From an uncultured Acidimicrobiia bacterium (GTDB lineage: Bacteria > Actinomycetota > Acidimicrobiia > Spongiisociales > Spongiisociaceae), in NCBI GenBank assembly GCA_958295745.1, contig OY282370.1, positions 2,764,548 to 2,828,547 of the forward strand: a stretch of 64,000 bases of DNA. The letters run 5' to 3'. Position 1 is the stretch's first letter, and each line of letters starts with the position of its first letter. A program made the translations under genes and the position numbers. Shown piece by piece: positions 2,635 through 53,541 of the stretch. The notes beneath the pieces were generated by a model. That model worked only from the letters and a program-made list of their open reading frames with translations. It was not told where the DNA came from and made no database searches.

Positions 2635-2909
2635 TTGAATCCGTCACACACCCATGAGATACTGACGATGTATCCAGAACGATACGAAATATCACCGCCG
2701 TTCCGGACTGCGGTGATCGAACAGCCCGCCCGCGGGGCCTCCGAAGACGGCGGCAACCCGCCAGGGCAGGCAACCTAGCCGAGCGACCGAACAAGTCGGG
2801 TGCGGCCCGGGCCCACGCGCCCCCGCGCCCACAACTCTTATCTGGTGGTGGAGGCGGGGGCAGGGCCCGGCGAAGCCGGGCGGAAGGCGGCGAAGAACGC
2901 GAAAAACGG
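2635..2909 (+). repeat. Dispersed promoter-palindrome-hairpin element, copy 1
   Basis: First of six copies of one intergenic element. It has a sigma-70-like promoter: TTGAAT at 2635-2640, a 17-bp spacer and GATACT at 2658-2663. An 8+8 bp palindrome (ATCACCGC / GCGGTGAT, 2691-2717) follows, then a GC-rich box containing GGGCCCACGCGCCC, the segment GGTGGTGGAGGCGGGGGCAG and a perfect hairpin CCCGGC-GAA-GCCGGG at 2866-2880. It ends with CGCGAAAAAC. No convincing reading frame fits all copies. It may be a small RNA gene or a mobile noncoding repeat. It lies in the 882-bp gap between the hydrolase and the PotD-like gene; 3237-3474 at the end of that gap shows nothing recognisable. Confidence 0.75.
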
Positions 2910-3066
2910 GGTCGAGGACGGGTCGAGGACGGGGCGGCGGTCGAGGACGGGCGGCCTGTTCTCGGGGGTTGTTCTCTCTGGTTCCTGGAAAGGTCCCGCC
3001 CAAACGACCCAGGACCCTGAAAGTCGGCCAGGGTCTCGGGGGGTGTTCTCTCTGGTTCCTGGAGAG
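2910..3066. repeat. Short tandem and direct repeats downstream of element copy 1
   Basis: Three near-identical GTCGAGGACGG units lie between about 2911 and 2951. They are followed by a 33-bp direct repeat at 2960-2992 and 3034-3066 (starting TCTCGGGGG and ending CCTGGA(A/G)AG, 2-3 differences). The two long units are separated by 41 bp containing no recognisable gene. This looks like local duplication; function unknown. Confidence 0.6.
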
Positions 3067-3096
3067 TGGGTAACGGGGGGGCGAAGTACAGTCAGA

Positions 3097-3236
3097 GGGT
3101 GCGTCGGATAGGCGCTCACCTGGGGATACACTGCTTGCGACGGTTGATGAGCCCACAGCCATAGCCAGGGGTTCCGAGCCGGATACTGAACGACGTTACG
3201 AACAGGGGCGGTCGCGGTCTGCCTATCCGCGCACCC
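3097..3236 (+). ncRNA. Candidate structured RNA bounded by a 16-bp inverted repeat
   Basis: The segment is closed by an inverted repeat: GGGTGCGTCGGATAGGC at 3097-3113 and GCCTATCCGCGCACCC at 3221-3236 pair over 16 bp with one bulged T. An inner GCGAC/GTCGC pair extends the fold. A -10-like TACAGT at 3087-3092 would place a transcription start at about 3099, almost exactly at the first base of the stem, and a T-rich stretch follows the 3' arm. No good -35 is visible. The SRP, RNase P and tmRNA signature motifs are absent. It could instead be a MITE-like insertion. No other copy was noticed in the window. Confidence 0.4.
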
Positions 3237-3474
3237 TTCTAGCTTCGTTTTCTGGCAATATCCCGGTGCGGCGGGCGCCGGATCTCGCTCGGGGATATAG
3301 CGGGGGTCTCACCGGAGGCGCCGCTCGTGAACCCTGGCATGCGAGATGAACATATCGGCGGCGGTCGTAGAATGCGGGTCTCGCGAGCCGCGGGCCGGCG
3401 CGTCGTGTCGGTGATGCCGAACCGCCCCTGCGCGGGGCCGCGTGGTCAACCCCTACCAGGGACAGCAAAACCCC

Positions 3475-4617
3475 ATGTTCACATCTGCCTACTCGAGAGA
3501 ACGGCCGCCCCGTCGTCGAGGGCGCCGGAGGACGGCCGCCGCGTTGGCCCTGCTCGTCCTGTTCACGGGCGCCTGCGGAGCGGCGCAGAACGGGCCGGAG
3601 GCCCCGCCGCGGCCTGTCTGCGCGGCGGGCCAGATCGACGGGGAGGTGATCCTGCTCTCCGGACCGGGCCAGATATCCCCCCGGGTGGTGGAGCAGTTCG
3701 AGAGGCGCTACGGCGTGGACGTGGTGGATCTCACCTACGAATCCGAGGGCGACTTGCTTTCCCGGGTCACGGCCGGCGCCGACGATTTCGACGTCATCCT
3801 GCTCACCGACTATCTGGTGGACGTCCTGCGGCGCGGCGGGGACTTGTTCCCGCTCGACCCCATCGCGCTCCCGGGAGCGGCCAACCTGGATCCCAAGTTC
3901 GCTCCGGCGGTGGACGAATCCGAGGAGTTCTATTCGGTTCCCATGGTTTGGGGCACTGTGGGGGTCGGTCTGAACGTCAACGTGGTCGGCCCGGATGTCG
4001 AACCGACCTGGGGGATGGTGTTCGACACCTATCAAACCTGGATCTACGCGGGGCGGGTCTCCCTGCTCGACGACGGCCGCCAAGTGCTGGCCGCGGCCAT
4101 GCTCTACCTCGGATATTCACCCAACTCGGCCGACCGGACGCAGGTGCGCATGGCCGCCGATCTGGTGGCGGCGGCCCGGGCCCATCTGGGCGGCTTCGAC
4201 TCGGAGAGCTACGTCCCCAGGCTGGTGGAGGGCGTGTTCGACGTAGTGCAGGGGAGGTCGGACGAGTTCATCGAGGCTCTCCCCGACGACACCGCCGACT
4301 TTCGTTACGTCATCCCCCGCGAGGGCGCCGTCGCCTGGGTGGACAACATGGTGGTTCCCACCACCTCCCGGCATCCGTGCAGCGCCCATTCGTTCATAGA
4401 TTTCGTCCTGGAACCGAGGATCGGGGCGGAGGTGGCGAACTACTCCAAGGCGGCCACGCCCAACCTGGCGGCCGTTCAGCACGTACTCCCGGAGCTGGCG
4501 GCCGATCCGAGCATCTACCCGCCTCCTGAGGTGCTGGACCGCCTGGAGCTGCTGGTCTACAACGAAGACCTCGACCGCCTGTACGCGGAGGAGTTCATAC
4601 CCCTGGAACCGGCCTGA
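3475..4617 (+). CDS. PotD-like ABC transporter substrate-binding lipoprotein (polyamine type)
   Basis: This protein of about 380 residues resembles spermidine/putrescine-binding proteins that deliver polyamines or similar cations to an ABC permease. An arginine-rich start leads to a hydrophobic segment ending in a lipobox FTGAC. Typical two-lobe binding-protein sequences follow, such as DFDVILLTDYLVD, VPMVWGTVGVGLN and VAWVDNMVVPTTS. The ATG at 3475 is preferred to the GTG at 3442 because it begins right before the signal peptide. No ATPase or permease gene is adjacent, so it is an orphan binding protein here. The ligand is inferred only from the family. Confidence 0.8.
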   Translation: MFTSAYSRERPPRRRGRRRTAAALALLVLFTGACGAAQNGPEAPPRPVCAAGQIDGEVILLSGPGQISPRVVEQFERRYGVDVVDLTYESEGDLLSRVTAGADDFDVILLTDYLVDVLRRGGDLFPLDPIALPGAANLDPKFAPAVDESEEFYSVPMVWGTVGVGLNVNVVGPDVEPTWGMVFDTYQTWIYAGRVSLLDDGRQVLAAAMLYLGYSPNSADRTQVRMAADLVAAARAHLGGFDSESYVPRLVEGVFDVVQGRSDEFIEALPDDTADFRYVIPREGAVAWVDNMVVPTTSRHPCSAHSFIDFVLEPRIGAEVANYSKAATPNLAAVQHVLPELAADPSIYPPPEVLDRLELLVYNEDLDRLYAEEFIPLEPA

Positions 4618-4702
4618 TCGCTCTGATCCCGCCCCGCCGAATATCCCCTGTACACCCCCGCCCGGAACCTCCGGAACGGGCCGTTGCCGGTATGCTGGAG
4701 GG

Positions 4703-5413
4703 GTGGCCGCCACGGTTCCCAGACTCCGCCCAGCCTTGAGGGGCCGCGCCCCCAACCTGGCCGTGGAGAAGCGCCTGTGGGGGATGGGGAACGAAGTGGT
4801 GGCGGGGGTGGACGAGGTGGGCCGGGGCGCCTGGGCCGGGCCCCTGACGGTAGGTGCGGCCGTCGTGCCGAAAGACCGGCGCATCTACAAGCTGCGGGAC
4901 TCGAAGATGCTGACCGAGGACGAACGCGAGGCGCTCTTCGACCGGGTGGCGGAATGGTGCACGAGGTGGGCGGTCGGGCACGCCAGCCACGAGGAATGCG
5001 ACCGGCTCGGCATGTCGGATGCGCAGCGCCTGGCCGCCCGCCGGGCCCTCGACGCCCTGGGAACGGCGCCCGACCGGATACTGATCGACGGGCGGTGGGA
5101 CTTCGTGGGGGGCGGCGGCACGATCCGGCTGGTCAGGGGGGACGCCACGTCCCTTACCATCTCGGCGGCTTCCATACTGGCCAAGGTGGTGCGCGACCGG
5201 ATCATGCGCGGCCTCGCCCCCTCCTACCCGAACTACTGTTTCGAGGCCAACAAGGGCTACCCCTGCCCCAGGCACAAGTCGGCGCTCCAGGCCTGGGGGC
5301 CTTCCAGCATCCACCGGCGCAGCTGGGTGTTCATGGACCACCTGCCCTGGACGGGCGTCCCCCGATTCATCAGGCCCGACCCGCAGGGATCCCTCTTCGA
5401 CACCGGGCAGTAG
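4703..5413 (+). CDS. rnhB: Ribonuclease HII
   Basis: RNase HII cuts the RNA strand of RNA-DNA hybrids and removes misincorporated ribonucleotides. The protein has about 236 residues. The active-site start GVDEVGRGAWAGPL, the DSKMLTEDERE motif, the ILIDGRWDF region and the SLTISAASILAKVVRDR helix are all present. The GTG at 4703 gives the N-terminal PNLAVEKRLW segment common in actinobacterial homologues; the possible ribosome-binding sequence GGAGG is very close to it, so the start is not certain. It converges with the hydrolase gene ending at 5505. Confidence 0.93.
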   Translation: MAATVPRLRPALRGRAPNLAVEKRLWGMGNEVVAGVDEVGRGAWAGPLTVGAAVVPKDRRIYKLRDSKMLTEDEREALFDRVAEWCTRWAVGHASHEECDRLGMSDAQRLAARRALDALGTAPDRILIDGRWDFVGGGGTIRLVRGDATSLTISAASILAKVVRDRIMRGLAPSYPNYCFEANKGYPCPRHKSALQAWGPSSIHRRSWVFMDHLPWTGVPRFIRPDPQGSLFDTGQ

Positions 5414-5504
5414 AAAAACCGAGGAACCGCTACTGCGAACCCCGGGGACGGCGGACCTCCCGCCGAGGCGGGCGGCCGGATGAACATCGGGGGTGACCTC
5501 GGAA

Positions 5505-6299
5505 CTACCCGTCCAGGTGGGCGGCGATGGCGTCGATCACCGGATCGGGCTGTTCGACGATCATGATATGGCCGGCCCCTTCGATCACCGCCTCGGTGAA
5601 ATCCGCCAGACGGCGGCGGAGTGGGTCGGCGGCCCGGCGCGGCGTCATCACATCGAGCGATCCGCTGATCAGCAGCACCGGGCAGCGGACCGAGGCGGCG
5701 GCTCGTTTCCCGCCGGCGTAGTCGTTGCAGGCGCGGAGGTCCGCGGCCAGCACCCCCGGCTTCGACCGCTCCCAGAGCCGTATGGCCGATCCCATCATCC
5801 AGATGCCGGGGGTCCGGTGCCCGCCCAGGTGGGAGGTCCGCCCGTGGCCCCAGGAGGCCATCAGCTCGTAGGCGAGGCGGTCGCCCGCTTCGGCGGCCGC
5901 CGTGAGGGCGGGATGTACGGGGATGGCGGCGGCGGGGCCCGCCATCGTCAGCGTCGCCGCCTTGTCCGGGTGGCGGGCGGCCATATCCAGCCCGATCAGC
6001 CCCCCCATCGAATGGCCGACCAGATGGGCCCTCTCGTATCCGGCGGCCTCGATCAGGGCCGCCGCCCAGTCTGCGTACTCCTCGATCGAGGAGCAGGGGC
6101 GGCCTTCGGAGCCTCCATGTCCGGGCAGGTCGACCGCCAAGACCGAATATCCCCGGTGGGAGAAATAGCGGGTCTGCAGCTGCCACACCGTCTTGTCGAG
6201 GGCGGCGCCGTGTAAGAACAGCACCAGCGGCAGCCCGGGGGCGGGGGGCCGCCCGCCGGTGGTGGCGGCGACCCGGGCGCCCCCGACCGTCAGCTCCAT
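5505..6299 (-). CDS. Alpha/beta-fold hydrolase
   Basis: This cytoplasmic alpha/beta hydrolase has about 264 residues and no signal peptide. The oxyanion-hole motif FLHGAA, the nucleophile elbow LVGHSMGG, the acid motif GSLDVMTP and the histidine motif GAGHIMIVEQP are in the usual order. The ATG at 6299 follows the upstream sulfhydrylase gene by 14 bp, so it is the last gene of a four-gene minus-strand operon (10545 to 5505). The substrate cannot be read from sequence. Its place after two homoserine/cysteine-handling PLP enzymes suggests an ester or thioester intermediate, but this is inference. Confidence 0.85.
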   Translation of the reverse strand: MELTVGGARVAATTGGRPPAPGLPLVLFLHGAALDKTVWQLQTRYFSHRGYSVLAVDLPGHGGSEGRPCSSIEEYADWAAALIEAAGYERAHLVGHSMGGLIGLDMAARHPDKAATLTMAGPAAAIPVHPALTAAAEAGDRLAYELMASWGHGRTSHLGGHRTPGIWMMGSAIRLWERSKPGVLAADLRACNDYAGGKRAAASVRCPVLLISGSLDVMTPRRAADPLRRRLADFTEAVIEGAGHIMIVEQPDPVIDAIAAHLDG

Positions 6300-6313
6300 G
6301 CCTGCCCCGCCGC

Positions 6314-7612: not shown

Positions 7613-7626
7613 ATGATCTCCCGTGG

Positions 7627-9390: not shown

Positions 9391-9393
9391 TGT

Positions 9394-10545: not shown

Positions 10546-10616
10546 ATACCTCCTCGTAACGGCGCCAGGTTACCCGGCCTTCATCCAGAATATGGCGAGA
10601 CCGCGCAACGAGGGTC

Positions 10617-10890
10617 TTGATGATATCATATTATTGGTGTATAGTGTTGGATAACAGATATCACAGCGGTCCGGACGCTGCGATCATATAGACCGTTCCG
10701 CCCAAGACACCGGCGCCAAAGCATGCGGCAGACCCAAAAGGGCGGGACGTCGAAACTAGCCGAGCGGCCGAACGAGTCGGGTGCGGCCCGGGCCCACGCG
10801 CCCCGCACCGAGAAAGCGTGATTTGGTGGTGGAGGCGGGGGCAGGGCCCGGCGAAGCCGGGTTTTTTCGCGAGAAGATCGCGAAAAACGA
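10617..10890 (+). repeat. Dispersed promoter-palindrome-hairpin element, copy 2
   Basis: Promoter TTGATG (10617-10622), exact 17-bp spacer, TATAGT (10640-10645). The palindrome ATCACAGCG...CGCTGCGAT is at 10660-10684. The middle part shares CTAGCCGAGCG(A/G)CCGAAC and GGGCCCACGCGCCCC with copy 1, and GGTGGTGGAGGCGGGGGCAG is identical to copy 1. The hairpin CCCGGC-GAA-GCCGGG is at 10847-10861. The copy ends with a second hairpin (TTTTTCGCG / CGCGAAAAA). It sits between the divergent start of the PLP gene and the 3' end of the nitrobindin gene; 10891-11127 shows nothing recognisable. Confidence 0.75.
10847..10867 (+). terminator. Probable intrinsic terminator within element copy 2
   Basis: A perfect 6-bp GC stem with a GAA loop (CCCGGCGAAGCCGGG) is followed directly by six T residues, the classical Rho-independent pattern. 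The other copies keep the hairpin but not the T-run. A transcript from the copy's own promoter would end here at about 215 nt. Confidence 0.55.
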
Positions 10891-11643: not shown

Positions 11644-11651
11644 CGGTCGTA

Positions 11652-15072: not shown

Positions 15073-16224
15073 ATGAGGATCCGGAACATCGACATACGGG
15101 AGAACCGGCCGCCGGCCAGGATTTCGGCCCCGGCGGCGGCGCTGGTCTTGGCCTTGGTCATGGCGGCCTGCGGCGGCGGGGAAACGACCGGGGACACCGG
15201 CGCCGGGCAGACCGCCGTCGAGGAAACCCCGTCCGGCGGCGGCGAGGCCGCCGTCACCGTCACCGAGGCGGACGCAGAAGAGCAACCCGAGACGCTGGGA
15301 GAGTATCTGGGTTACGACTTCGACGATCCGGACGCCCAAGCGGCCCGTGATGCGGACAACCGGCGCCGAACGGAGGAGATTGTCGCCCGTTGTATGGCGG
15401 AGGAGGGGTTCGAGTACATACCCGCGGTCCGCCCCTTCTCCCCATCCGCCTACGCGGCGCTCGACGAGGAGGAGTACGCCAGGGAAGCCGGGTTCGGGAT
15501 CACCACCTGGTACGGCCGGGAGATCGAGCCCGCTCCCGAGGACGACTGGGTGGATCCCAATATCGCCATCGTGGAGGCCATGTCCGATTCGGAGAGGAAG
15601 GCCTACCGGGCGGCGCACTTCGGCGAAGTCACCGAGAGGGTCGATGCCGACCCCGAGTCCGGGGCGGCAATAGAGGAGGCCTGGGGAGGCGGCTGCACAG
15701 GGCAGGCGTATCGGGAGGTCTACGGCGGGCAGGACGAGATGTGGGAACAGATCGCCCCCATGCTGGAGGAGATGTACCAGCGGGCCCTGGCCGATCCCCG
15801 CTACCAGGCGGCCAACGATGGATGGGCGGCCTGCATGTCCGACCGCGGCTATCGATACGACAGCATCGACCAGATGTACGGCGAGATATACGATGACTTC
15901 GGCGGCCGCTTCGAAGAGATCGTCGGTTCGGAGGGAGGCTGGGTGAATCCGTTCGAAGGTTGGAGCGAAGAGCGGGTGGATGCCTTCCTGGCCGAGAACT
16001 CGCAGGAGGAGATCGACGACTTCTACGAGCAGGCCCAGAGCGAGGCGAGGGCCGCGGTGGACCAGGATGCGCTGGCCGCCCTCCAGCAGGAGGAGCGGGA
16101 CCTGGCGGTGGCCGACTACGAATGCGCGCAGGATATCCGCGGGGTCGTCGAAGAGATCCAGCAGGAGTACGAACGCCGGTTCATCAGTGAGAACCGCGAC
16201 CTGCTCGAGCAGCTGCGGGGCTGA
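15073..16224 (+). CDS. Tandem paralogous lipoprotein A, function unknown
   Basis: This 383-residue predicted lipoprotein has a lipobox VMAACGGG after a hydrophobic segment, then an acidic Thr/Glu-rich linker and a conserved domain starting ETLGEYLGYDFDDPDA. It contains paired cysteines in IVARCMAEEGFEYIPA, GGGCTGQAYREVY and WAACMSDRGYRYD that could form disulfides outside the cell. The ending PFEGWSEERVDAFLAENSQ is nearly identical to the next gene. The product is about 40-50% similar to its neighbour by eye and is not a family I recognise. GAGGAAGG precedes the ATG. Confidence 0.8.
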   Translation: MRIRNIDIRENRPPARISAPAAALVLALVMAACGGGETTGDTGAGQTAVEETPSGGGEAAVTVTEADAEEQPETLGEYLGYDFDDPDAQAARDADNRRRTEEIVARCMAEEGFEYIPAVRPFSPSAYAALDEEEYAREAGFGITTWYGREIEPAPEDDWVDPNIAIVEAMSDSERKAYRAAHFGEVTERVDADPESGAAIEEAWGGGCTGQAYREVYGGQDEMWEQIAPMLEEMYQRALADPRYQAANDGWAACMSDRGYRYDSIDQMYGEIYDDFGGRFEEIVGSEGGWVNPFEGWSEERVDAFLAENSQEEIDDFYEQAQSEARAAVDQDALAALQQEERDLAVADYECAQDIRGVVEEIQQEYERRFISENRDLLEQLRG

Positions 16225-16239: not shown

Positions 16240-17427
16240 GTGAGGTTTCATAGGTTTCATATGCGGTGCGGTTCGCCGGACCGGGCCCGCCCCGCCCCGG
16301 CCGCCCGCGCCGCGTCGGTCTGGTTGATATCGGCGGCGCTGTTGCTGGGCGCCTGCGGCGGGGGTTCGACCGGGGATGCGGATGATGCGGATCCCGGGCA
16401 GACCTCCCGGGCCGAGACCCCGGCCGAGACCGAAGGGACCGCCGTCGATGAGACCGCGGCAACCGCCGAGGCCGAGGCGCCGGGGGATGGCGAACCGGAG
16501 TCGCTCTCCGATTACCTGGGTTTCGATTTGGAAGACCCTGACGCCGCCGCGGCCCAGTTCCAGGAGAGCGAGCGCCGGGCCCAGGAGCTCATGGCCCTGT
16601 GCATGGGTCGGGAGGGCTTCGAATACGTTCCCTTCACCTCCACTTCTGGCTTACAGGCCGATTTCCAGGACGACTCGGAGGAATACGCCCGGGAGTACGG
16701 GTTCGGAATCACCACTTGGTACGGGAGGGAGGAGCCGGACGACGGGGGGTCCGAGACGGACCCGAACCAGGCCATCCAGGCCGCCATGTCGGAATCCGAA
16801 CGGGAAGCCTATTCCGTCGCCCTCTACGGTCCGCCCACGACAGACGAAGAGGGGGTCGAGGCCTTCGAGGGCGAGCTGACCTTCGGCGGCGGCTGCCAGG
16901 GAGAGGCCTACCAGGAGGTGCTGGGCCAGATGATGAGGTTGATGCAGACGCTCGGGCCGGCGATCCAGGATATGAACGAGCGGATGCAGGCCGACCAACG
17001 GGTGGCGGAAGCCGCCGAGAGCTGGTCCGCGTGCATGGCGGATCGGGGATACCGGTACGAGGACCAGAACGAGATGTTCGCGTCGATCTCTACCGACTTC
17101 GGGGGCCGCCTCGACGAGATAATCGGCCCCGACGGGGGCGCCGTAGACCCGTTCGAGGGCTGGACCGAGGAGCAGGTGGCGACCTTCCTGGCCGAGAACT
17201 CGCAGGAGGAGATCGACGACTTCTACGAGCAGGCCCAGAGCGAGGCGCGGGCCGCGGTGGACCAGGAGGCGGTCGCCGCCCTCCAGCAGGAGGAGCGGGA
17301 CCTGGCGGCGGCCAACTTCGAGTGCGGGCGGGATCTGCAGGACGTGTTGGAAGAGGTCTGGCCCGAATACGAGCAGGGGTTCATAAGCGAGAACCGCGAA
17401 CAGCTCGAGGAGGTCCGGGATGGTTAG
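16240..17427 (+). CDS. Tandem paralogous lipoprotein B, function unknown
   Basis: This 395-residue paralogue of the preceding lipoprotein has the same plan: lipobox LLLGACGGG, acidic linker, ESLSDYLGFDLEDPDA domain start and the three cysteine-containing motifs (LMALCMGREGFEYVPF, GGGCQGEAYQEVL, WSACMADRGYRYE). Start is the GTG at 16240 with AAAGG upstream; ATG at 16261 is an alternative that shortens the signal peptide's n-region. Its 3' part matches gene A almost base for base at an offset of 1200 bp. Position just before the adaptor-ABC genes suggests an export- or envelope-linked role. Confidence 0.78.
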   Translation: MRFHRFHMRCGSPDRARPAPAARAASVWLISAALLLGACGGGSTGDADDADPGQTSRAETPAETEGTAVDETAATAEAEAPGDGEPESLSDYLGFDLEDPDAAAAQFQESERRAQELMALCMGREGFEYVPFTSTSGLQADFQDDSEEYAREYGFGITTWYGREEPDDGGSETDPNQAIQAAMSESEREAYSVALYGPPTTDEEGVEAFEGELTFGGGCQGEAYQEVLGQMMRLMQTLGPAIQDMNERMQADQRVAEAAESWSACMADRGYRYEDQNEMFASISTDFGGRLDEIIGPDGGAVDPFEGWTEEQVATFLAENSQEEIDDFYEQAQSEARAAVDQEAVAALQQEERDLAAANFECGRDLQDVLEEVWPEYEQGFISENREQLEEVRDG

Positions 17428-21264: not shown

Positions 21265-21396
21265 TGATCGCCGCCCCTGATGATGGCCGCCCGATTATCC
21301 CGGCCCCCGCCGCCGTCGGGTTCCGGGGGAGGGCAGTAGTCCGGGGGAGAGATTCGCCTCGGATAGGGCCCGCGAAAGATTCCGGAAACGAAAGGG

Positions 21397-21680
21397 TTGG
21401 CCGTGTCACAGCTCTGTAGTATTCTAAAGGACATAGAACAACAGATATCACCGCGGTTCCGGACCGCGGCGGATCGAAACGGCGAACCCGAACTCCTGAA
21501 AACCCAGGCCGGCCTTTCGCGAGGGTGACCGGGATCGGGCGAGCACTCGGCTGAGACCGAAAACCCAAACGGGGTTGCGGGGGCAGGCCTACGCGCCCGC
21601 CCCGTCCCAGACCTGGATCGGTGGAGGCGGGGGAGGGCCCGGCGAAGCCGGGAAAACGCGGCGAAAGATCGCGAAAAACC
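21397..21680 (+). repeat. Dispersed promoter-palindrome-hairpin element, copy 3
   Basis: Promoter TTGGCC (21397-21402), 17-bp spacer, TATTCT (21420-21425). The palindromic block ATCACCGCGG-TTCCGGA-CCGCGG starts at 21447. The GC-rich box is a variant shared with copy 4 (GAGACCGAAAACCC then GGGTTGCGG...ACGCGCCCG), followed by GGTGGAGGCGGGG and the hairpin CCCGGC-GAA-GCCGGG at 21638-21652. It ends in GATCGCGAAAAAC. It follows the ABC permease gene; 21265-21396 and 21681-21860 contain nothing else recognisable apart from a -10-like TACAGT at 21817-21822. Confidence 0.75.
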
Positions 21681-28249: not shown

Positions 28250-28425
28250 GCGCACACCCGGCTATGAGATCGTCGATACACGACTTCGAATTCCCCGGTC
28301 CGGTCGGAGATCCGAGAACCTCCCCCTCTCGGAAAACCGCCCGCCCGCCCCGCTAAAACCGCCCGCCGAAAACCGCGAAAATCGCCGGAAATCAGCCCCC
28401 CCTGCGGGCCCCTTACCGTGTTTGG

Positions 28426-28600
28426 GTATGTCCCCGTGGGATGATTCGGGGATGGTTGCCCGTCACGGCGGGTAGGGCTGCCGGGCCCTGTCAGATGATG
28501 ACTTGGGGAGTGGTGCCGCCCGTCGTGTTGGGTGTGGTTGACCTCTAACAGGAACATGCACCGGTGAACCGTACCGGGTTTTCGGGGCTTTGTAAGGTGG
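28426..28600 (+). ncRNA. Candidate IS110 bridge RNA in the left end
   Basis: IS110-group elements encode a guide (bridge) RNA in the noncoding left end. Here the stretch begins with a 5' hairpin TCCCCG...CGGGGA (about 28431-28452) enclosed by GGG/CCC pairs, followed by two internal GC-rich regions that could be the target- and donor-binding loops. The predicted start (about 28426) lies 7 bp after TACCGT, which becomes a -10 box when the ends are joined in a circle. The 3' end is a guess. The guide-loop pairing was not resolved. Confidence 0.5.
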
Positions 28601-28668
28601 TTGACGGCAGCTGCGCCTGTGGGCGGGTGATTTTCGAGGAAGATCGTTCGCTGGTGAAAGGAGCCAGG

Positions 28669-29883
28669 ATGAGTTCGGGTGAGATGGCGGTGTTTGTGGG
28701 GGTGGACGTAGCCAAAGAAGAACATTTCTGCCAGGCGATAGGCGCTGAGGGAACCGAGCTGTTCGCCCGGGCGGTGGGCAACAACGAAGCCGACCTGGAA
28801 CAGATGATCAACCAGGCCGAGAGGTCGGGGCGGGTGGTGCTGGTCGTCGATACGACCAGCTCGGGTGCTCATCTGTTGCTGGGGGTAGCCGCCCGCAGAG
28901 CAATACCCGTAGCGTATGTGACCGGCCTCCAGATGCGCCGAGCGGCGGAACTGTACGCAGGTTCGGCCAAGACCGACCCCCGAGACGCGTTCGTGCTGGC
29001 GGACTTCGCCCGCCGCAACGCCGATCGTCTGACCTGGGTAACGATCACCGACGAGGTACTGACCCGGATGCGGGTCCTGTCGGGCCACGACGAAGACCTA
29101 GCAGCCGACTCGACCCGGACGATCAACCGCCTCCGGGACGCCCTGGTGTCTGTATCCCCTGGTCTGGAACGTGTTCTGGGTTCCAAACTAGCCCAGAAGG
29201 GCGTCCGAGCGGTGCTGCTGCGCTGGCCTGTGCCCACAGCCATGCGAGCAGCGGGCAAGACACGAATACGAAACCTGCTGAAAAAACACTATCCCAACAA
29301 ACCCCACAAAGCCGTCGAGCTGACCGACCGGATCTGGGCGGCGCTCGGCGCCCAGACCCTCACCCTGGCGGGCGAAGCCACCTGGGGAGAGGTCATCACC
29401 AAAAAGGCAGACGCACTCGAGCGTATCACAGCCGAACGAAAAGAACTCACCGCGGCCATCGAGGAGGCCTTCACCGCCCACCCTTTAGCCGAGATACTGA
29501 TTTCCGTACCAGGGATCGGCGTCCGGACCGGCGCCCGCATCCTGACCGAAGTCGGTGACCCACACCGCTTCGCCAACGGATCCCGCCTGGCGTCCTACGC
29601 CGGCCTAGCCCCCGCCACCCGCCGATCCGGCCGAACCATCAACACCACCAGACGCAACCCAGGCGGGAACCACCGACTCAAAAACGCCATGTACTGGACC
29701 GCGTTCTCAGCCTCCCAACACGACCCACACGCCCGGGCCTACTACCAACGCAAACGAACCGAAGGCAAACGCCACACCACCGCCGTCACCCACGTCGCCC
29801 GCCGCCGATGCGACCTCATACTCGCCGTACTCAAAAACCAAACCCTCTACAACCCACCCGAACCAGCCCCCGAACCCGTTTGA
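28669..29883 (+). CDS. IS110-family transposase (bridge-RNA-type recombinase)
   Basis: This 404-residue recombinase has an N-terminal RuvC-like DEDD domain with VFVGVDVAKEEH (first Asp at residue 13) and TDPRDAFVLADFARRN. A middle coiled region follows, and a C-terminal transposase_20 domain with ILISVPGIGVRTGARILTE and RLASYAGLAPATRRSG, the latter carrying the probable catalytic serine. The ATG at 28669 is chosen because AAAGGAG lies 5 bp upstream; 35 further upstream codons are open but overlap the noncoding left end. Full length for the family and with no internal stop, so likely active. Confidence 0.92.
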   Translation: MSSGEMAVFVGVDVAKEEHFCQAIGAEGTELFARAVGNNEADLEQMINQAERSGRVVLVVDTTSSGAHLLLGVAARRAIPVAYVTGLQMRRAAELYAGSAKTDPRDAFVLADFARRNADRLTWVTITDEVLTRMRVLSGHDEDLAADSTRTINRLRDALVSVSPGLERVLGSKLAQKGVRAVLLRWPVPTAMRAAGKTRIRNLLKKHYPNKPHKAVELTDRIWAALGAQTLTLAGEATWGEVITKKADALERITAERKELTAAIEEAFTAHPLAEILISVPGIGVRTGARILTEVGDPHRFANGSRLASYAGLAPATRRSGRTINTTRRNPGGNHRLKNAMYWTAFSASQHDPHARAYYQRKRTEGKRHTTAVTHVARRRCDLILAVLKNQTLYNPPEPAPEPV

Positions 29884-29984
29884 CAAACCGACAGGAACAC
29901 TCCCCCACCGCCACCACCAGTATCGGATCACGCAGGACACACGCGAGCGGTCCGTGACCTGTGGGTCTTGACTGCCCCTGCGAG

Positions 29985-30148
29985 GCGTCGGTCACTGACA
30001 CCCGCATCGTCTTTCGTCGGCGCGGCGCCCATGAACGGGCCGTCCGTTCCGCCGGGGCGGGACCCCGATATGATCACCGCCCTCCGGTACGGCAGTGATG
30101 TTTGTGATCGGTATCTATCACTATACGGTATCCTTATGACAAGGACAA
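29985..30148 (-). repeat. Dispersed promoter-palindrome-hairpin element, copy 6 (interrupted by IS110)
   Basis: Read on the minus strand, this has promoter TTGTCC (30143-30148), 17-bp spacer, TATAGT (30120-30125) and palindrome ATCACTGCC...GGCGGTGAT (30073-30099). Copies 5 and 6 share ACAAACATCACTGCCG and GTGATCATA. The GC-rich box is not clear here. The 3' part of the copy appears to lie on the other side of the IS: the minus strand of 28361-28388 matches copy 5's CGGCGATTTTCGCG tail in about 26 of 28 positions. 28250-28360 holds nothing else recognised. Confidence 0.65.
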
Positions 30149-30163
30149 CCCCCTTGTCGGCGC

Positions 30164-31642: not shown

Positions 31643-32530
31643 ATGAACGCAGAGCAGTATCAGAAGGTGAAGGACGGACGGGGGTTCATAGCGGCGCTGG
31701 ATCAGAGCGGCGGCAGCACCCCCAAGGCGCTGCGGGCCTACGGGATAGCCGAGGACGCCTTCACCGGCGACGATGAGATGTTCGATCTGATCCACGCCAT
31801 GAGGACCCGCATCATCACCAGCCCCCGGTTCGGCGGCGACCGGATCATCGGGGCGATCCTCTTCGAGAACACCATGGACCGCCCGATCGAGGGCCGGGGC
31901 TCGGCCGCCTACCTGTGGGAGTCCAAGGGCGTCGTTCCGTTCCTCAAGGTGGACAAGGGCCTGGAAGGGGAGTCGAACGGGGTGCAGCTGATGAAGCCGA
32001 TCCCGGATCTGGACGGCCTGCTGGCCAGGGCCCGGGCCCATGGTGTGTTCGGCACCAAGATGCGGTCGGTCGTGAAGCTGGCCGACCGCGAGGGGATCGA
32101 GGCCAACGTCGGGCAGCAGTTCGAGCTGGGGGAGCGGATACTAGAAGCCGGCCTGATCCCGATCCTGGAGCCGGAGGTGGACATCGGCAGCCCGCAGAAG
32201 TCCGAGGCGGAAGCGCTGCTCAAGGAGGCGGTCCTTAGTCGTCTGGACCGTGCGGACGGCAGCTCCCGCTTCATGTTCAAGCTGACCCTTCCCGACGAGG
32301 ACGACCTGTACCGCGATCTGGTGGAACACCCCGGAGTGCTGCGGGTGGTGGCGCTCTCGGGCGGTTACGACCGGAAGGAGGCTTGCGGGCGGCTGGCCCG
32401 CCAGCGCGGGATGACGGCCAGTTTCAGCCGGGCCCTCACCGAAGGCTTGGCCGCAGGACAGAGCGACGAGGAATTCGACCGGACCCTGGACCGGTCGATA
32501 GCCGATATCTACCGGGCGTCCTCGACCTGA
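31643..32530 (+). CDS. Fructose-bisphosphate aldolase, class I
   Basis: This 295-residue Schiff-base aldolase of the bacterial short class I type cleaves fructose-1,6-bisphosphate in glycolysis and catalyses the reverse reaction in gluconeogenesis. Motifs include GFIAALDQSGGSTPKAL, IGAILFENTMDR, VPFLKVDKGL, GTKMRSVVKL, IPILEPEVDI and VVALSGGYDR. Catalytic lysines would be those in FLKVDKG and FMFKLTLP. The ATG at 31643 gives the canonical M-N-x-E-Q-x-x-K-V start. It is single-gene, with element copy 4 about 150 bp downstream. Confidence 0.93.
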   Translation: MNAEQYQKVKDGRGFIAALDQSGGSTPKALRAYGIAEDAFTGDDEMFDLIHAMRTRIITSPRFGGDRIIGAILFENTMDRPIEGRGSAAYLWESKGVVPFLKVDKGLEGESNGVQLMKPIPDLDGLLARARAHGVFGTKMRSVVKLADREGIEANVGQQFELGERILEAGLIPILEPEVDIGSPQKSEAEALLKEAVLSRLDRADGSSRFMFKLTLPDEDDLYRDLVEHPGVLRVVALSGGYDRKEACGRLARQRGMTASFSRALTEGLAAGQSDEEFDRTLDRSIADIYRASST

Positions 32531-32677
32531 TTCCGAGGTAAGGAGAAATCGTCGGAACGCCTCGATCCGGCGGGGGGGCGGACAGGTTCGGCGCAGGCCG
32601 TCTTCGGCGGGCGCAGTCCGGCGGGGGTATTCGTGCCGGCTCGAGTCGAAAAAAGGGCCCAGGATGAAACAAGGGGG

Positions 32678-32902
32678 TTGATGCTGTCGCACCCCTATGA
32701 TATGATAACAATATAGAACAACGTAAGTATCACCCCGGCACCGGACCGCGGTCTGATACGAAGCATCTGGCTGTGACCGAAACCTAGACAGGGTTGCGGG
32801 ACAGGCCCCCGCGCCCGTCCCCCCAGAACAACGGTTTGGTGGTGGCGGCGGGGGGAGGGCCCGGGGCGAAGCCGGAAAAGGCCGGAAAGATCGCGAAAAA
32901 CG
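32678..32902 (+). repeat. Dispersed promoter-palindrome-hairpin element, copy 4
   Basis: Promoter TTGATG (32678-32683), exact 17-bp spacer, TATGAT (32701-32706). The imperfect palindrome ATCACCCCGG...CCGCGGTCTGAT is at 32729-32757. Shared with copy 3: GTGACCGAAACC then GGGTTGCGGG and CGCGCCCG. GGTGGTGGCGGCGGGG and a degenerate hairpin CCGGGGCGAAGCCGG follow, ending GATCGCGAAAAACG. It lies between two convergent genes (aldolase and sthA-like), so it is not a leader for either; transcription would run toward the 3' end of the flavoprotein gene. 32903-33141 shows nothing else. Confidence 0.75.
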
Positions 32903-33141: not shown

Positions 33142-34545
33142 CTACATACCGAGCCGGTTGATCCCGTCCAGAGCGGCGGTCACATAGGATTCGGCCATCG
33201 TGGGATGGCTGATCACCGCATCCACGAAATAGTCGATCTTGCCCCTGTGCGCCATCACCGCCTGTCCTATGTGGACCATCTCGGCGGCGCCTTCCCCCAC
33301 GATATGCACCCCCAGCAGCTCCCGCGTATCTATGTTGAAGAGCAGCTTCAGGAACCCGGCGTCTACCCCCTTGACGATGCTGTTCACGTTCTCCTGGTAG
33401 TTGGCCTTGCCGACCTCATAGGGAATGCCGTCGTCGGTCAGCTCGGCCTCTGTCTTGCCGACCACCGCCAATTCGGGGATCGTCTTGATCATGTACGGCA
33501 TGAGATCCTGATAGTTGTCGATCGGAGTGTTGAACATGTGCCGGGCGGCCGAACGGCCCTGCATCCGTGAGACCGAGGCAAGGTCGGGGAACCCTATCAC
33601 CCCTCCCGCCGCATATATACCCTCCACATCGGTCTGGTAGTTCTCGTCTACGGCGAGGCGCCCCCGCCCGTCGGTTTCCAGGCCGGCCGCCTCCAGATTC
33701 AGCGCCGCCGTGGAGCCGGTGCGGCCCACACAATACAGAACCGCATCGGTCAGGATCTGCTTGTTGCTCTCCAGCACGACCCGCACCCGGTTCCCCCGCT
33801 CGTCGAGGAAGTACTCGATGTCGAACACAGCCTCGTTCAGGCGCAGGGTTACACCGTTCTGCCGCAGGTGATACGCAAGTACATCCGTGACTTCCTCGTC
33901 CATGAAAGGCAGCAAGCGGTTCTTGCGGTCTATGAGGGTTACCTTCACACCGAGCGCCGCGAAAGTGCCGCAGTATTCCAGACCCACCGCCCCGGCCCCG
34001 ACCACCACCAGCGTGCGGGGAAGCTCGTTGATGTCCATGACCTGGTAACCCACCAGGATCAGTTTTCCGTCGGCGTGGACGACCGGGGGATGGGTGGCGT
34101 CGGTCCCCACCGCTACGACTACCTTGTCGGCCGTTATCGTGCGGTTGACCCTGCCCTCGTCAGAAGCGAGATTGATGGTGTGGCGGTCGATGAAAGACCC
34201 CTCGGCCGCTGCGAACTCCACCCGGTTCCTGCTGAGCTGGCTGCGCAGGATATGGATGTGCTGCTGCGAAACGTATTGGTTCCTCACCAACAGGTCGCTC
34301 AAGGTGATGTTCTGTTTCACGGCGTAGGACCCGCCGTAGATCGCCCGCTCCCGGTAGCCGGTGAGGTGCATCACGGCTTCACGGAGGGTCTTGCTCACCC
34401 CTCCGGTGCTGACGTTCTCGCCGCCGACAGCCGGATATCTCTCGATTATGACGACATCCTTGCCCAGTTTCGCAGCCTGGATGGCGGCGCCCTGCCCCGC
34501 CGGCCCCGATCCGATGACTGCTAGGTCGTAGTCGTATCCGGCCAT
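33142..34545 (-). CDS. sthA: SthA-like soluble NAD(P)+ transhydrogenase (Si-specific), lacking redox cysteines
   Basis: This 467-residue two-dinucleotide-binding flavoprotein has the FAD site LAVIGSGPAGQGAAIQAAK, the NAD(P) site LVVVGAGAVGLEYCGTFAALG and a C-terminal dimerisation domain with GVHIVGEGAAEMVHIGQ and ISHPTMAESY. Soluble transhydrogenases move hydride between NADPH and NAD+. Where disulfide reductases have the CxxxxC active site, this protein reads GGENVSTGGVSKTLREA, with no cysteine and one residue fewer than the common TIPSKTLREA form. The function call rests on overall similarity; a related dehydrogenase is possible. ATG at 34545 with AAAGGAT upstream. Confidence 0.82.
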   Translation of the reverse strand: MAGYDYDLAVIGSGPAGQGAAIQAAKLGKDVVIIERYPAVGGENVSTGGVSKTLREAVMHLTGYRERAIYGGSYAVKQNITLSDLLVRNQYVSQQHIHILRSQLSRNRVEFAAAEGSFIDRHTINLASDEGRVNRTITADKVVVAVGTDATHPPVVHADGKLILVGYQVMDINELPRTLVVVGAGAVGLEYCGTFAALGVKVTLIDRKNRLLPFMDEEVTDVLAYHLRQNGVTLRLNEAVFDIEYFLDERGNRVRVVLESNKQILTDAVLYCVGRTGSTAALNLEAAGLETDGRGRLAVDENYQTDVEGIYAAGGVIGFPDLASVSRMQGRSAARHMFNTPIDNYQDLMPYMIKTIPELAVVGKTEAELTDDGIPYEVGKANYQENVNSIVKGVDAGFLKLLFNIDTRELLGVHIVGEGAAEMVHIGQAVMAHRGKIDYFVDAVISHPTMAESYVTAALDGINRLGM

Positions 34546-50534: not shown

Positions 50535-50546
50535 GGCGGGCGGCGG

Positions 50547-50936
50547 TCAGCCCTCCAACACCGCGGTCATCAGGACGTGGATGACCATCCCGAAACCCAG
50601 ATCGACCAGGTAGGTGTTGCGGGCCGGGCGGTCCCCGTCGCGGGGGAACATCTTCAGCCATTCCTCGTTCACGAGAGGCCGCAGCGAGTCGTCCTTTATG
50701 TTGAAGATCACCAAGGCGATGTCGTCGGTCGATCCGCCGGCGTTCTCCACGATGGTGCGCATGTGCCGGAACACCAGCTCCACCTGCCGCTTCGGGTCGT
50801 CCGGGATGGCGCCGGTGTCCGGGTCCATGGCGTGGATTCCGCTCGAATACACCATGTTGTCGATCTTCACGGCCATCGGGATCGGCATGTCGCCGTGGCG
50901 GACGCCCGGCACCTCGATGTTCACCCGCCTCGGCAC
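50547..50936 (-). CDS. RidA-family protein
   Basis: This 129-residue member of the YjgF/YER057c/UK114 family has the YSSGIHAMDPDTGAIPDDPKRQ and VELVFRHMRTIVENAGGSTDDI patterns. The C-terminal region resembles family members but lacks the classical R-x-x-x-x-x-x-L-P-x-x-x-x-V-E-I-E ending (it has RNTYLVDLGFGMVIHVLMTAV), so enamine deaminase activity is uncertain. RidA relatives also act as aminomuconate deaminases in aromatic catabolism, which would suit the ring-cleavage genes in this region. Confidence 0.8.
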   Translation of the reverse strand: MPRRVNIEVPGVRHGDMPIPMAVKIDNMVYSSGIHAMDPDTGAIPDDPKRQVELVFRHMRTIVENAGGSTDDIALVIFNIKDDSLRPLVNEEWLKMFPRDGDRPARNTYLVDLGFGMVIHVLMTAVLEG

Positions 50937-50985
50937 GGCTCTCCTTCTCGACTCCGGCCCCGAACCCTCGGACCCTTCGGAAACC

Positions 50986-52122
50986 TCAGACCGACACCAG
51001 ATCCCGGCTGTATTCGTTCAGGCATTCGGCCCCGCCGGGGCGGCACACGAACATGTCCTCCACCCGCACCCCCACATGACCGGGCCAGAAGATGGACGGT
51101 TCGATGGTGAAGGTCATCCCCTCTTCGAGGACGGTCATGTCCTCCTCGGAGATGAAAGGCCGCTCGTGGGTGTCGAGTCCGATGCAGTGGCCGGTGCGGT
51201 GCCGGAACCATTCCCCGTACCCGGCGTCGTCGATGACCGCCCGGGTGGCGGCGTTCACATCCGACGCGGCGGCCCCCGGAACAGCCGCCCGCCGCCCGGC
51301 CTCCTGGGCCTCCACCACCAAGGCGTAGGCCTCCCGGTAGCGGTCGTCCGGCTCGCCGATGTGGATGGTGCGCCCGAAGTCGGAGCAGTAGCCGTCCACC
51401 ACGGTGCCGAAATCGAACGACACCCCCAGGCCCTCCACCAGGGGGGCGGCGGTGAGGCGGGTGGAGGCGTCTCGGTCCAGAGCGGGGCCCATGGCGAAGA
51501 CGCCGGTGTCGAAGGAAGGATATTTCCCCCCGCGGCGCCGCATCAGGTAGTCGACCCGGCTGGAGATCTCGAACTCGGTGACCCCGGCGGCCACCGACGA
51601 CGTGATCTCCTCCATGACCCGGTCGCATATCAGGGCCGACCGCCGCATGGCCTCCATCTCGTCCGGCGCCTTGACCCGCCGCAGGGCGTTGATCTCGTCG
51701 TCCAGATCGACCAGCTCGGCCCCGCCGGTCATCTCCACCATGCGCACCGCCGTCCTGGAGAAGGTGCGGGCCGACAGCCCGATCCGCCGGATGGGTCCGA
51801 ACCGGGCCAGCACGGAGGAGAAAACCGCCGCGCCGTCGTCCAGGTTCCGCACCGTCACCACGTCGCCTTCCACCCCGTCCGGCAGGTTGAAAGCGGAATA
51901 TCCCTGGGGAACGATGTAGACGGGCTCGCCTTCGGGGCGGAACAGCGCCCCGGTGACCCACTGGTGGGCGTACTCGATGTTGCCGAACGAAGGCGCCCGC
52001 CTGGGGAACCCGGTCAGGTACTCCAGATCGCCCGACGGCAGGCACATGGCCACATCGACGGACAGCTCCGCCATCCGCTCCTGTAACCGGGCCCGCCTGG
52101 CGGTGTGGTCGAACCCGCTCAC
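50986..52122 (-). CDS. M24-family metallopeptidase (Xaa-Pro dipeptidase/creatinase type)
   Basis: This 378-residue protein has an N-terminal creatinase-like domain and a C-terminal pita-bread fold. The five metal ligands can be placed: Asp residues in SFDFGTVVDGYCSDFGRT, His in HRTGHCIGLD, Glu in TFTIEPSIF and Glu in GVRVEDMF. M24 members cleave dipeptides or C-N bonds in creatine-like molecules. It is 9 bp from the amidohydrolase gene on the same strand, forming an operon with it and probably RidA. The substrate is open. Confidence 0.87.
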   Translation of the reverse strand: MSGFDHTARRARLQERMAELSVDVAMCLPSGDLEYLTGFPRRAPSFGNIEYAHQWVTGALFRPEGEPVYIVPQGYSAFNLPDGVEGDVVTVRNLDDGAAVFSSVLARFGPIRRIGLSARTFSRTAVRMVEMTGGAELVDLDDEINALRRVKAPDEMEAMRRSALICDRVMEEITSSVAAGVTEFEISSRVDYLMRRRGGKYPSFDTGVFAMGPALDRDASTRLTAAPLVEGLGVSFDFGTVVDGYCSDFGRTIHIGEPDDRYREAYALVVEAQEAGRRAAVPGAAASDVNAATRAVIDDAGYGEWFRHRTGHCIGLDTHERPFISEEDMTVLEEGMTFTIEPSIFWPGHVGVRVEDMFVCRPGGAECLNEYSRDLVSV

Positions 52123-52131
52123 GCTAGGCGC

Positions 52132-53163
52132 TCAATCAGACTCACCGGCGCCGCCGACCCCTTCCCAGCGGGTGAATATCTTCTCGGCGTTGCGGTAGAA
52201 CACGGCCGCCTTCTGTTCCTCGGACAGGAAGTCGATGCTGTCGATGACCGGCCCCAGGTCGTCCATGTAACGGCCGGTCTTGCGGTCGATGCCCGATCCG
52301 ATGCCGGGGGTCTCGGTTCCGAACATGCAGTGCTCGGGGCCGACGATCTTGAAGAGCAGCTCCAGGGACTCCTTGTTGTAGAGCACGGTGTCGAACCACA
52401 GCTTCCGCAGGCTGATCTCGAAGTCCTCCTTGCCCTTCTGGATGCGCTGGGCCTGCCAGCGTCCGTACTGGTAGGGGACCGAGCCGCCTCCGTGGGAGAT
52501 GATCAGCTTGAGGTCAGGGAAGTCCTCGAACACCTTCGAGTCCATCAGCGACATCACCGCGATTCCCTCCTCGGTGATGAAGTGGTTCGAGTAGGACTCG
52601 CGCGGGTTGGAGCAGGAGGTGGCGTGGACCAGGCCGGGAACGTCCAGCTCCACCATCTTCTCCCACAGCGGGTACCACCATTCGTCCCCGAGTCCGGGGG
52701 ATGCGTAGTCGCCCTCGCCCGGATCGGGGTTCACCACGCAGCCCACGAAGCCCAGCTCGGTGACGCAGCGTTCGAGTTCGGCTACCGAGTTGGCCGGGCT
52801 GACCCCGGCGCTCTGGGGGAGGCCGGCCACGCCCACGAAGGCGTCGGGGTATTCGGCCACCTGGGCGGCGATGATGTCGTTCACGGTCTCGATGAACCAG
52901 TGGACGATGATCTCCGGCTTGCGGGAATGCATCATCGAGTAGGGCCGGGGAGAGATGAACTGTCGGTCGATGCCGTGGCTGCGGAGCCGCTCGACATGGG
53001 GCAGCGCAGCCTGGAGCACCTCCTCTTCGGTAGCCCGTATCCTGCCCTTCCCGTGGAAGGCCCGGGCGGACATCAGGCCCGCCTGATAGGCATAGAGGGC
53101 GATAGGGGCGGTCACATGGCCGTGTACATCTATACGGGGTGCTTTTTGATCAGACATGGGCAT
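52132..53163 (-). CDS. Amidohydrolase-2 family (ACMSD/LigJ-like)
   Basis: This 343-residue TIM-barrel amidohydrolase has the N-terminal metal motif DVHGH, LIISHGGG with a metal-binding His, and a later GTETPG in the place of the catalytic acid. The family includes 2-amino-3-carboxymuconate semialdehyde decarboxylase and 4-oxalomesaconate hydratase, both steps of ring-cleavage pathways. A start at ATG 53163 (MPMSDQ) or 53157 is possible. Element copy 5 lies upstream with its promoter pointing at this gene, about 350 bp away, so it could drive the operon. Confidence 0.82.
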   Translation of the reverse strand: MPMSDQKAPRIDVHGHVTAPIALYAYQAGLMSARAFHGKGRIRATEEEVLQAALPHVERLRSHGIDRQFISPRPYSMMHSRKPEIIVHWFIETVNDIIAAQVAEYPDAFVGVAGLPQSAGVSPANSVAELERCVTELGFVGCVVNPDPGEGDYASPGLGDEWWYPLWEKMVELDVPGLVHATSCSNPRESYSNHFITEEGIAVMSLMDSKVFEDFPDLKLIISHGGGSVPYQYGRWQAQRIQKGKEDFEISLRKLWFDTVLYNKESLELLFKIVGPEHCMFGTETPGIGSGIDRKTGRYMDDLGPVIDSIDFLSEEQKAAVFYRNAEKIFTRWEGVGGAGESD

Positions 53164-53261
53164 GAAAGATACGCCGGATGCGGTGCGGTCGTCAAACGGA
53201 AGCCCCGCCGCGAGCCGGGGTTGACCTAGGTCGGTGGTCGGGGGCTTGACCGAGCGCACAT

Positions 53262-53298
53262 CCGGCCAATCCCCCCTGAACCGGCCAATCCCCCTGAA
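53262..53298. repeat. Tandem 18-19-bp repeat, two units
   Basis: CCGGCCAATCCCCCCTGAA (53262-53280) is followed directly by CCGGCCAATCCCCCTGAA (53281-53298), one C shorter. It lies between the start of the amidohydrolase gene and the end of element copy 5. It may be a slippage duplication or a pair of protein-binding sites. Confidence 0.5.
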
Positions 53299-53320
53299 CC
53301 CGAGAACTGCGGCCCCCCGC

Positions 53321-53541
53321 CGAGAACGCGAAAATCGCCCGCCGCCTGGCCGCCCCCTCTGGGCCCAGCCCCCACCTCCGCCACTCAGATCGTTATCTCG
53401 GTGCCGGCGCGTGGGCCGGGCCTCGGTACAAGGGGTGAACCGAAGTGAGATCCCGATTATGATCACGGCGCTCTCTAGAAACCGGCAGTGATGTTTGTGC
53501 TTCGGTAACTATCATTATACAGCATGGCTGGGACAATTCAA
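53321..53541 (-). repeat. Dispersed promoter-palindrome-hairpin element, copy 5
   Basis: On the minus strand: TTGAAT (53536-53541), 16-bp spacer, perfect TATAAT (53514-53519) and palindrome ATCACTGCCGG...GCGCCGTGAT (53462-53492). A GC-rich box follows with GGCCCACGCGCC (53405-53420), GTGGCGGAGGTGGGGG, and GGGCCC in the place of the usual hairpin, ending in GGCGATTTTCGCG. It is the only copy whose transcription runs toward the start of a gene, the amidohydrolase. The adjoining gap 53542-53854 contains a hairpin GCATCC-GCCAAGA-GGATGC (53691-53709) and the ribosome-binding site of the HpaB-like gene but no other feature I can name. Confidence 0.7.

Follow-up and report, generated by a model that had tools for sequence, protein, structure and literature searches.

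Why does a single stretch of bacterial DNA carry, at six places between its genes, the same arrangement of a promoter, a palindrome and a hairpin? The stretch (hereafter the window, 64,000 bases) comprises bases 2764548-2828547 of the 3.0-Mb contig OY282370.1 and belongs to the 3.31 Mb genome of an uncultured Acidimicrobiia bacterium. An earlier note on this DNA had described the six copies and their order of parts; all of this is present in the sequence, and the aligned copies have invariant TTG, ATCAC and GG.GG positions. A family of independent RNA genes is the most economical reading of the evidence. More specifically, we lean, with modest confidence, towards the view that the copies are free-standing genes, all encoding one class of structured non-coding RNA; the RNA would act in trans and contain a switch, and its genes would have been spread partly by a transposon-like unit.

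The family extends well beyond the six copies. A BLAST search with copy 2 returned 47 places in its own genome at E ≤ 10, itself included. A covariance model of the promoter and first hairpin (R2, built from 26 own-genome copies, hereafter own copies), with scores computed for 150 of 1898 candidates, found 91 places at E ≤ 1; the E-value falls below 1e-3 for 72 of these. A whole-element profile run on 382,614 bases of this genome gave 93 matches, 88 of which have the 5′ part and a few of which are halves of one split copy. Such numbers far exceed chance, and we put the family at about 90 copies in 3.3 Mb. We distinguish at least three subfamilies: in the window copies 1-4 make up A, copy 5 belongs to B, as does the less typical copy 6, and C has 10 copies by a strict promoter pattern, none of them in the window. 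All three have the common order promoter, hairpin, G-rich box and end box, with some copies missing parts; the G-rich pattern is found in 80/88 own copies and a TTTTCGCG/CGCGAAAA box lies within reach in 73/88.

The promoter was examined in the own copies. The TTG of the -35 region is present in 80/88 (161/440 shuffled controls) and invariant in the 26 own copies that were aligned, and 46 of the 55 copies with a -10 matching at least 4/6 positions have a 17-bp spacing (39/440 shuffled controls). A promoter of its own, as expected of a free-standing small RNA (sRNA) gene, is therefore found in the own genome and is weaker in the sister genus, which we call g4. The spacers had been described as almost unrelated, and this does not hold: TGTC lies about 7 bases past the TTG in 40/88 own copies under a strict first-TTG rule, compared to 1/440 letter-shuffled controls, and is part of a TGTCAC that is fully conserved in those pairs of orthologous sites that could be anchored on it (see below). 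Subfamily C is without this motif. A regulator acting at TGTCAC is possible.

Downstream of the -10 lies the ATCAC...GTGAT palindrome. In the 26 own copies, 4 of its 6 pairs have changed on both sides, with a covariation score of 0.389 compared to 0.211 +/- 0.025 for shuffled alignments (0/500 reach it) and at most 0.156 for slid controls. Because it follows the -10 and shows the covariation of a stem, this palindrome reads better as an RNA hairpin (P1) than as an operator. Covariation is also seen in the sister genus: among 24 g4 RNAs, both partners have changed at 5 of 17 pairs (3/500 shuffles), with a score of 0.090 versus 0.055 +/- 0.009 (0/500 shuffles), further pair types not being above shuffles (230/500). 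A 40-row g4 alignment has 6 of 30 pairs changed on both sides, a number reached by 12/500 shuffles. These alignments are chosen subsets: A2 to A5 hold 24, 26, 40 and 24 copies, A4 being 40 of the 47 prepared g4 references (L087, L123, L093, L137, L141, L100 and L130 omitted) and A5 24 of 41, and one g4 selection step retained 52 of 58 copies. A conserved fold with compensatory change is accordingly found for P1 and the g4 RNAs, and not for the 3′ half of the own RNAs.

The G-rich box follows a GGNGGNGG(N)GGGG pattern of varying N in 126/135 copies. In g4 the G-rich strand is able to pair with the 5′ arm in 40/40 rows (helix 1 has 4 pairs, two of which vary one-sidedly), and this pairing and a quadruplex are mutually exclusive, so that the two states may represent a switch. 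Furthermore, 27 of 47 g4 copies have a TTTT within 4 bases of a terminator-like hairpin.

Further evidence comes from orthologous sites, defined as g4 sites with the same flanks in two genomes (72 pairs, which are not independent). The element is 86.2% identical in these pairs and coding sequence 84.7%, compared to 76.9% for the upstream (n=63) and 66.0% for the downstream (n=47) noncoding flanks; the element exceeds its noncoding flanks in 62/68 pairs. TTG..TGTC could serve as an anchor in 16 of the 72 pairs; identity there reaches 100% for TGTCAC and 98% for the -10 hexamer, with the remaining spacer mostly at 56-81% and the upstream stretch at 75%. This pattern indicates constraint on TGTCAC, on the -10 and on the RNA. 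Since the copies of relatives are often found at the same chromosomal places, the elements look kept rather than debris. The earlier suggestion of a small-RNA family is thus strengthened by the further copies here and in relatives, by the covariation, and by a constraint at orthologous sites that includes TGTCAC and the -10. Two of the three outcomes that the note had named as refuting it, a lack of further copies and a lack of covariation, have thus not come about.

We examined the position of the copies relative to genes using genes called by a simple script based on codon usage, with 19 open reading frames (ORFs) of the window as its training set, so that neighbour counts are approximate; 1/88 own and 30/154 g4 copies, which have no called neighbours on both sides, are omitted from them. 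Overlap with a called gene never exceeds 80 bases (0/88 own and 0/154 g4 copies above this limit). The 87 own copies comprise 35 in convergent, 21 in co-directional, 16 in both-opposite and 15 in divergent-type positions, the corresponding numbers for 124 g4 copies being 48, 23, 43 and 10. The downstream gene opposes the element in 51/87 own and 91/124 g4 cases. Measured to the downstream gene, the median distance is 277 bp for own and 154 bp for g4 copies. It is very improbable that the copies serve downstream genes as 5′ leaders, be it as riboswitch or as attenuator: the downstream gene is co-directional in 36/87 own and 33/124 g4 copies, as leaders would have it, and we reject this function for most copies because the majority face an opposing gene. 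The same orientation, together with the location and covariation of P1, argues against the regulator-controlled regulon that had been proposed, most copies not standing before a co-oriented gene.

How far does the family reach? We searched relatives with R1, a model of the 3′ half of subfamily A, and R3, a model built from g4 copies. R1 matched 14/40 genomes at E ≤ 0.01, namely the own genome, 10/10 g4 genomes, G004, G021 and G038; the G021 and G038 loci, when read, have a CCGGCGAAGCCGG-like hairpin only and look like chance. A scan of 395 genomes of the class with R3 (7 best candidates per genome scored, E ≤ 0.001) matched 18: the 10 g4 genomes, 2 from another genus (g2) and 6 from a genus of another family in the order (g30). 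Deeper scoring of 20 chosen genomes at E ≤ 0.01 gave 31-51 matches in each of the 10 g4 genomes, 12 and 3 in the g2 genomes, 7-20 in each of the six g30 genomes that had already matched, and none in the two g3 genomes (completeness 72% and 78%). Relatives with the family thus hold 3-51 elements per genome. The strongest match in the g2 genome G004 (contamination 8%) may sit on a foreign contig. Read directly, the g30 and several g2 copies have the same layout, with a TTGAC-like -35, a TGTCACA-like spacer, GCCAARCACC, P1, GGGATCA, GGTGGTGGCGGGGG and TTTTCGCG.

Two further scans are limited by the models. R3 matched 0/396 genomes of the phylum, a result of little weight as R3 also misses the own genome, and R2 matched only G000, G001, G004 and G007 among 138 genomes of the order, indicating that it misses most g4 copies and those of g30. 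The DNA pattern of the g4 RNA occurs in at least 120 stretches of named genomes, and among 80 matches listed, 79 come from metagenome-assembled genome records titled Acidimicrobiia or "bacterium"; judging by their names, we take the isolates with this pattern to be from marine sponges. The remaining one of the 80 listed (L197) is a contig filed under Gammaproteobacteria (CO36388bin_2), which may reflect mis-binning or transfer. Four g4 loci (L084, L085, L086, L098) also have arrays of ~47-bp palindromes (CTTGAGGCAGAGGGCGTCATATATGACGCCCTCTGCCTCAAG-like) downstream of the RNA gene.

Several results weigh against the RNA-gene reading. In the 16 anchored pairs the TTG of the -35 is 73% identical, not above the 75% of the upstream stretch, and constraint on the -35 is therefore not demonstrated; gene conversion among copies could raise the identity at orthologous sites, and the pairs are not independent. 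In g4, only 40/151 copies have a -10 matching at least 4/6 positions and the spacing is split between 15 and 17 (18 copies each). The score of the 40-row g4 alignment, in which the G006 rows are misaligned in the last hairpin, is just above shuffles (0.093 vs 0.084, 9/500) with further pair types not above them (448/500). For the own 3′ half, RNAalifold predicts 12 pairs, 0 of which have changed on both sides, leaving its putative fold unproven; on the whole own-genome alignment RNAalifold gives a poor fold. ViennaRNA places a quadruplex within the best fold of 46/47 g4 and 86/88 own RNAs, predictions that stem from the GGN pattern itself and hence are no independent evidence. At the 3′ end, the CCGGCGAAGCCGG hairpin is found in 36/88 own copies and only 14/88 have a TTTT within 4 bases of a terminator-like hairpin, which leaves termination at the GC hairpin in doubt for the majority of own copies. 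The end box stands in either orientation, as would suit a DNA site better than an RNA motif. Finally, part of the expansion of the family is mobile. The few T-runs of the own copies and a -35 conserved no better than its flank lower our confidence in RNA genes and raise that in an element acting as DNA and in a mobile element.

Under the first of these alternatives, which we regard as improbable, the copies are DNA-level intergenic elements (a terminator or a protein-binding insulator at gene ends) and their transcription is incidental. The end box reads CGCGAAAAAC in copies 1-4, and copies 5 and 6 carry the reverse complement (TTTTCGCG...); a box TTTTCGCGTTCTC, antisense at the end of A and sense at the end of B, has 39 exact places in the own genome, mostly at elements and in either orientation, compared to 0 for a reversed control. 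Also in favour of such an element, 35/87 own copies are in convergent positions, compared to 8/45 adjacent gene pairs in the window. Against it stand the conservation of TGTCAC, the -10 and the spacing, and a P1 pairing kept by compensatory changes, which neither a terminator nor a binding site would need. In C, and in several g4 copies too, a box related to TTTTCGCGTTCTC precedes the promoter.

The other alternative, to which we give an appreciable minority of the weight, is a transcribed non-autonomous mobile element whose promoter, fold and end boxes are kept for some mobilising machinery, with no host benefit required. Copy numbers of 30-90 per genome, in g4 as in the own genome, and the presence of subfamilies A, B and C within one genome, are consistent with it. 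Six copies outside the window share a common unit of ~472 bp at 95.6-98.1% identity, with ends TTAAGGGGG and CCCTCTTAA that form TTAAG(A/G)GGG-like inverted ends and with no clear target duplication; a seventh is split by an IS110 insertion sequence (IS), its two parts matching at 93% and 97%. None of the seven is in the window. A 142-bp repeat at 3095-3236, downstream of copy 1, also has inverted ends (GAGGGTGCG.CGGATAGGC / CCTATCCGCGCACCC) and resembles the right part of the 472-bp unit, a likeness suggesting that the RNA gene was captured by a small transposon. By eye, a set of B copies has about 200 bp or more of upstream sequence in common. A GCGAAA-type box marks the 5′ end of 10/10 pattern-defined C copies, with TTTTCGCG, judged by eye, at their 3′ ends where these were read and are uncut by an IS. 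Between the genes of one pair, G003 has a copy where G006 has only ~50 bp; the search for empty sites used loci picked for holding a copy, and gain or loss rates are not readable from it.

Against a mobile element stand the many copies kept at orthologous sites with a constraint above their flanks, a constraint that peaks at TGTCAC, the -10 and internal motifs, and the lack of a target duplication for the 472-bp unit. By eye we also saw no linked recombinase besides the interrupting IS110 elements, with no systematic search made for it or for outer ends of the other copies. The claim that the family is not a fresh transposition stands for the many copies retained at orthologous sites, and has to be given up for those that spread recently in the 472-bp unit, with the B copies alike upstream and the gene pair occupied in one relative and empty in another pointing the same way.

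We found that the family is itself a target of insertion. Copies are broken at the G-rich box by two distinct elements of the IS110 family, each with the Pfam domains DEDD_Tnp_IS110 and Transposase_20. Their junctions are found in 4 + 5 of the 88 own copies (9/88, copy 6 among them), and an IS110-like fragment lies in one further own copy.

In the RNA genes that we favour, transcription would start just before P1 from a sigma-70-like promoter with a TTG-type -35, a TATA-like -10 and a spacer of mostly 17 bp, which in most subfamilies contains TGTCAC. The predicted RNA of ~190-260 nt would fold into P1, a second helical domain, the G-rich strand GGNGGNGGNGGGGG and a short GC hairpin. In part of the copies a T-run comes after this hairpin and makes it a possible intrinsic terminator. 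In the sister genus, we hypothesize that the G-rich strand either pairs with an invariant 5′ arm (GCCAAGCACC) or forms a two-layer G-quadruplex, and toggling between the two would be the likeliest working part. The RNA would act in trans, the many loci providing dose and redundancy; its genes would have multiplied partly by riding in the transposon-like 472-bp unit, and their conserved G-rich box is where the two IS110-type elements land.

Other identities were considered separately. Rfam 15 gave 0 matches at E ≤ 1 in 7 loci (4 g4, 2 own A, 1 own B) and 0 at the gathering threshold in the window, and Rfam families are rejected as the identity on these scans; transfer RNA and transfer-messenger RNA are likewise rejected with 0 in the window. 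Plasmid or phage origin is rejected because copy 2 has no match in plasmids or phages at E ≤ 1e-5, and the subfamily A hairpin/end-box pattern has 0 exact matches in viral_contigs. A coding frame across the element is rejected given the absence, noted above, of called-gene overlaps beyond 80 bases. A short frame over the G-rich box would read GGN as possible glycine codons; the GGGGG that follows is invariant in the 24- and 40-row alignments, an argument from sequence only. We assign the family to no named one.

In the window, the copies of subfamily A are all on the plus strand, their ends taken from the profile and from the parts as read. Copy 1 (2626-2907) has its -35 GTCTTGA at 2632-2638, -10 GATACT at 2658-2663, P1 at 2691-2717, G-rich box at 2843-2860, hairpin CCCGGCGAAGCCGGG at 2866-2880 and end box GAACGCGAAAAAC at 2895-2907. 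In copy 2 (10608-10888) the -35 is at 10614-10620, the -10 TATAGT at 10640-10645, P1 at 10658-10687, the G-rich box at 10824-10841, the hairpin, followed by T6, at 10847-10861 and the end box at 10876-10888. Copy 3 (21390-21679) has -35 GGTTGG at 21395-21400, -10 TATTCT at 21420-21425, P1 at 21445-21474, G-rich box at 21619-21633, hairpin at 21638-21652 and end box at 21667-21679. Copy 4 (32669-32901) lies between convergent called genes (31643-32530, plus; 33142-34545, minus), with -35 GGTTGA at 32676-32681, the -10 region at 32699-32706, an imperfect P1 at 32728-32758, G-rich box at 32837-32855, hairpin at 32860-32875 and end box at 32889-32901.

The other two copies are on the minus strand. 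Copy 5, of subfamily B (53322-53550, profile ends 53550-53361), has its -35 at 53544-53538, -10 TATAAT at 53519-53514, P1 at 53494-53459, G-rich box at 53386-53369 and, in the other orientation, end box GATTTTCGCGTTCTC at 53336-53322. The 5′ part of the B-like copy 6 (29901-30157, profile ends 30157-29901) has its -35 at 30150-30145, -10 TATAGT at 30125-30120, P1 at 30101-30070 and a G-rich box at 29919-29902 that is cut there by an IS; its 3′ part (28368-28412, minus) lies past the IS with GGGGCCCGCAGGGG at 28412-28399 and end box GATTTTCGCGGTTTTC at 28383-28368. This 5′ part lacks hairpin and end because the IS110-family element, at 28413-29900 on the plus strand with ends uncertain by a few bases, occupies its G-rich box; the transposase ORF is at 28564-29883 (plus; DEDD_Tnp_IS110 E 1.6e-39, Transposase_20 E 4.3e-24).

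Apart from the six copies, two adjacent called genes of the window contain a 300-base direct repeat, 74% alike, at 15767-16066 and 16967-17266, 1200 bases apart. Elsewhere, loci L013/L022 and L019 hold paired RNA gene copies within ~600 bp, one of them partial in L019, and short local repeats, different at each locus, lie downstream of own copies in L003, L013, L015 and L004.

What would such a family mean? To our knowledge, it is rare for a bacterium to retain one structured RNA gene in dozens of copies at orthologous sites; if transcribed, this would be among the RNA gene families of highest copy number in a bacterium, in lineages represented here by metagenome-assembled genomes only. It is tempting, though doubtful, to see in it global RNA regulators of a new class, encoded redundantly at 30-90 loci per genome in two genera of one order of Acidimicrobiia and at fewer in two more: the G-rich strand would toggle between a quadruplex and pairing with an invariant 5′ arm, transposons would spread the genes, and IS110 elements would have adapted to the conserved box as a safe place to land. 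We found no title on such a family in Acidimicrobiia in the open-licence PubMed Central (PMC) literature. The family appears undescribed, without an Rfam match in the scanned loci, and resembles both multicopy sRNAs and intergenic repeats.

Multicopy sRNA families, of which Qrr is an example, are similar in having their own promoter, a structured RNA, several paralogous loci and, in part of the copies here, a terminator-like end. They differ in that the present family has 3 to ~90 copies per carrying genome, a GC-rich fold with a GGN box and no Rfam relative in the scanned loci. Among the intergenic repeats, Correia elements carry promoters, and repetitive extragenic palindromes (REPs) are short sequences of about 20-40 bp. 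With Correia elements and other bacterial miniature inverted-repeat transposable elements our family shares the many intergenic copies and the inverted ends, found here for the 472-bp unit (PMC2229807, PMC6382973). Unlike them, the family has a covarying multi-domain fold, retention at orthologous sites and no target duplication at that unit. As for REPs and the bacterial interspersed mosaic elements built on them, PMC1525189 describes several ISs that insert specifically into REPs and PMC11208160 examines REP elements as targets of IS621, so that many intergenic copies, hairpins and use as IS targets are common to both, and the IS110 insertions at the G-rich box resemble the IS preference for REP repeats. 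In contrast to REPs, the elements of the present family are ~230-290 bp long, with a promoter and several domains. The bridge RNA of IS110 elements likewise has a sigma-70 promoter followed by a structured RNA (PMC11208160), and IS110 elements are physically associated with our family. However, the RNA here does not lie within the IS: the repeat is the landing site and IS110 sits inside it (9/88 junctions). The family is also a natural system for studying how IS110 elements adapt their target choice to a conserved host repeat.

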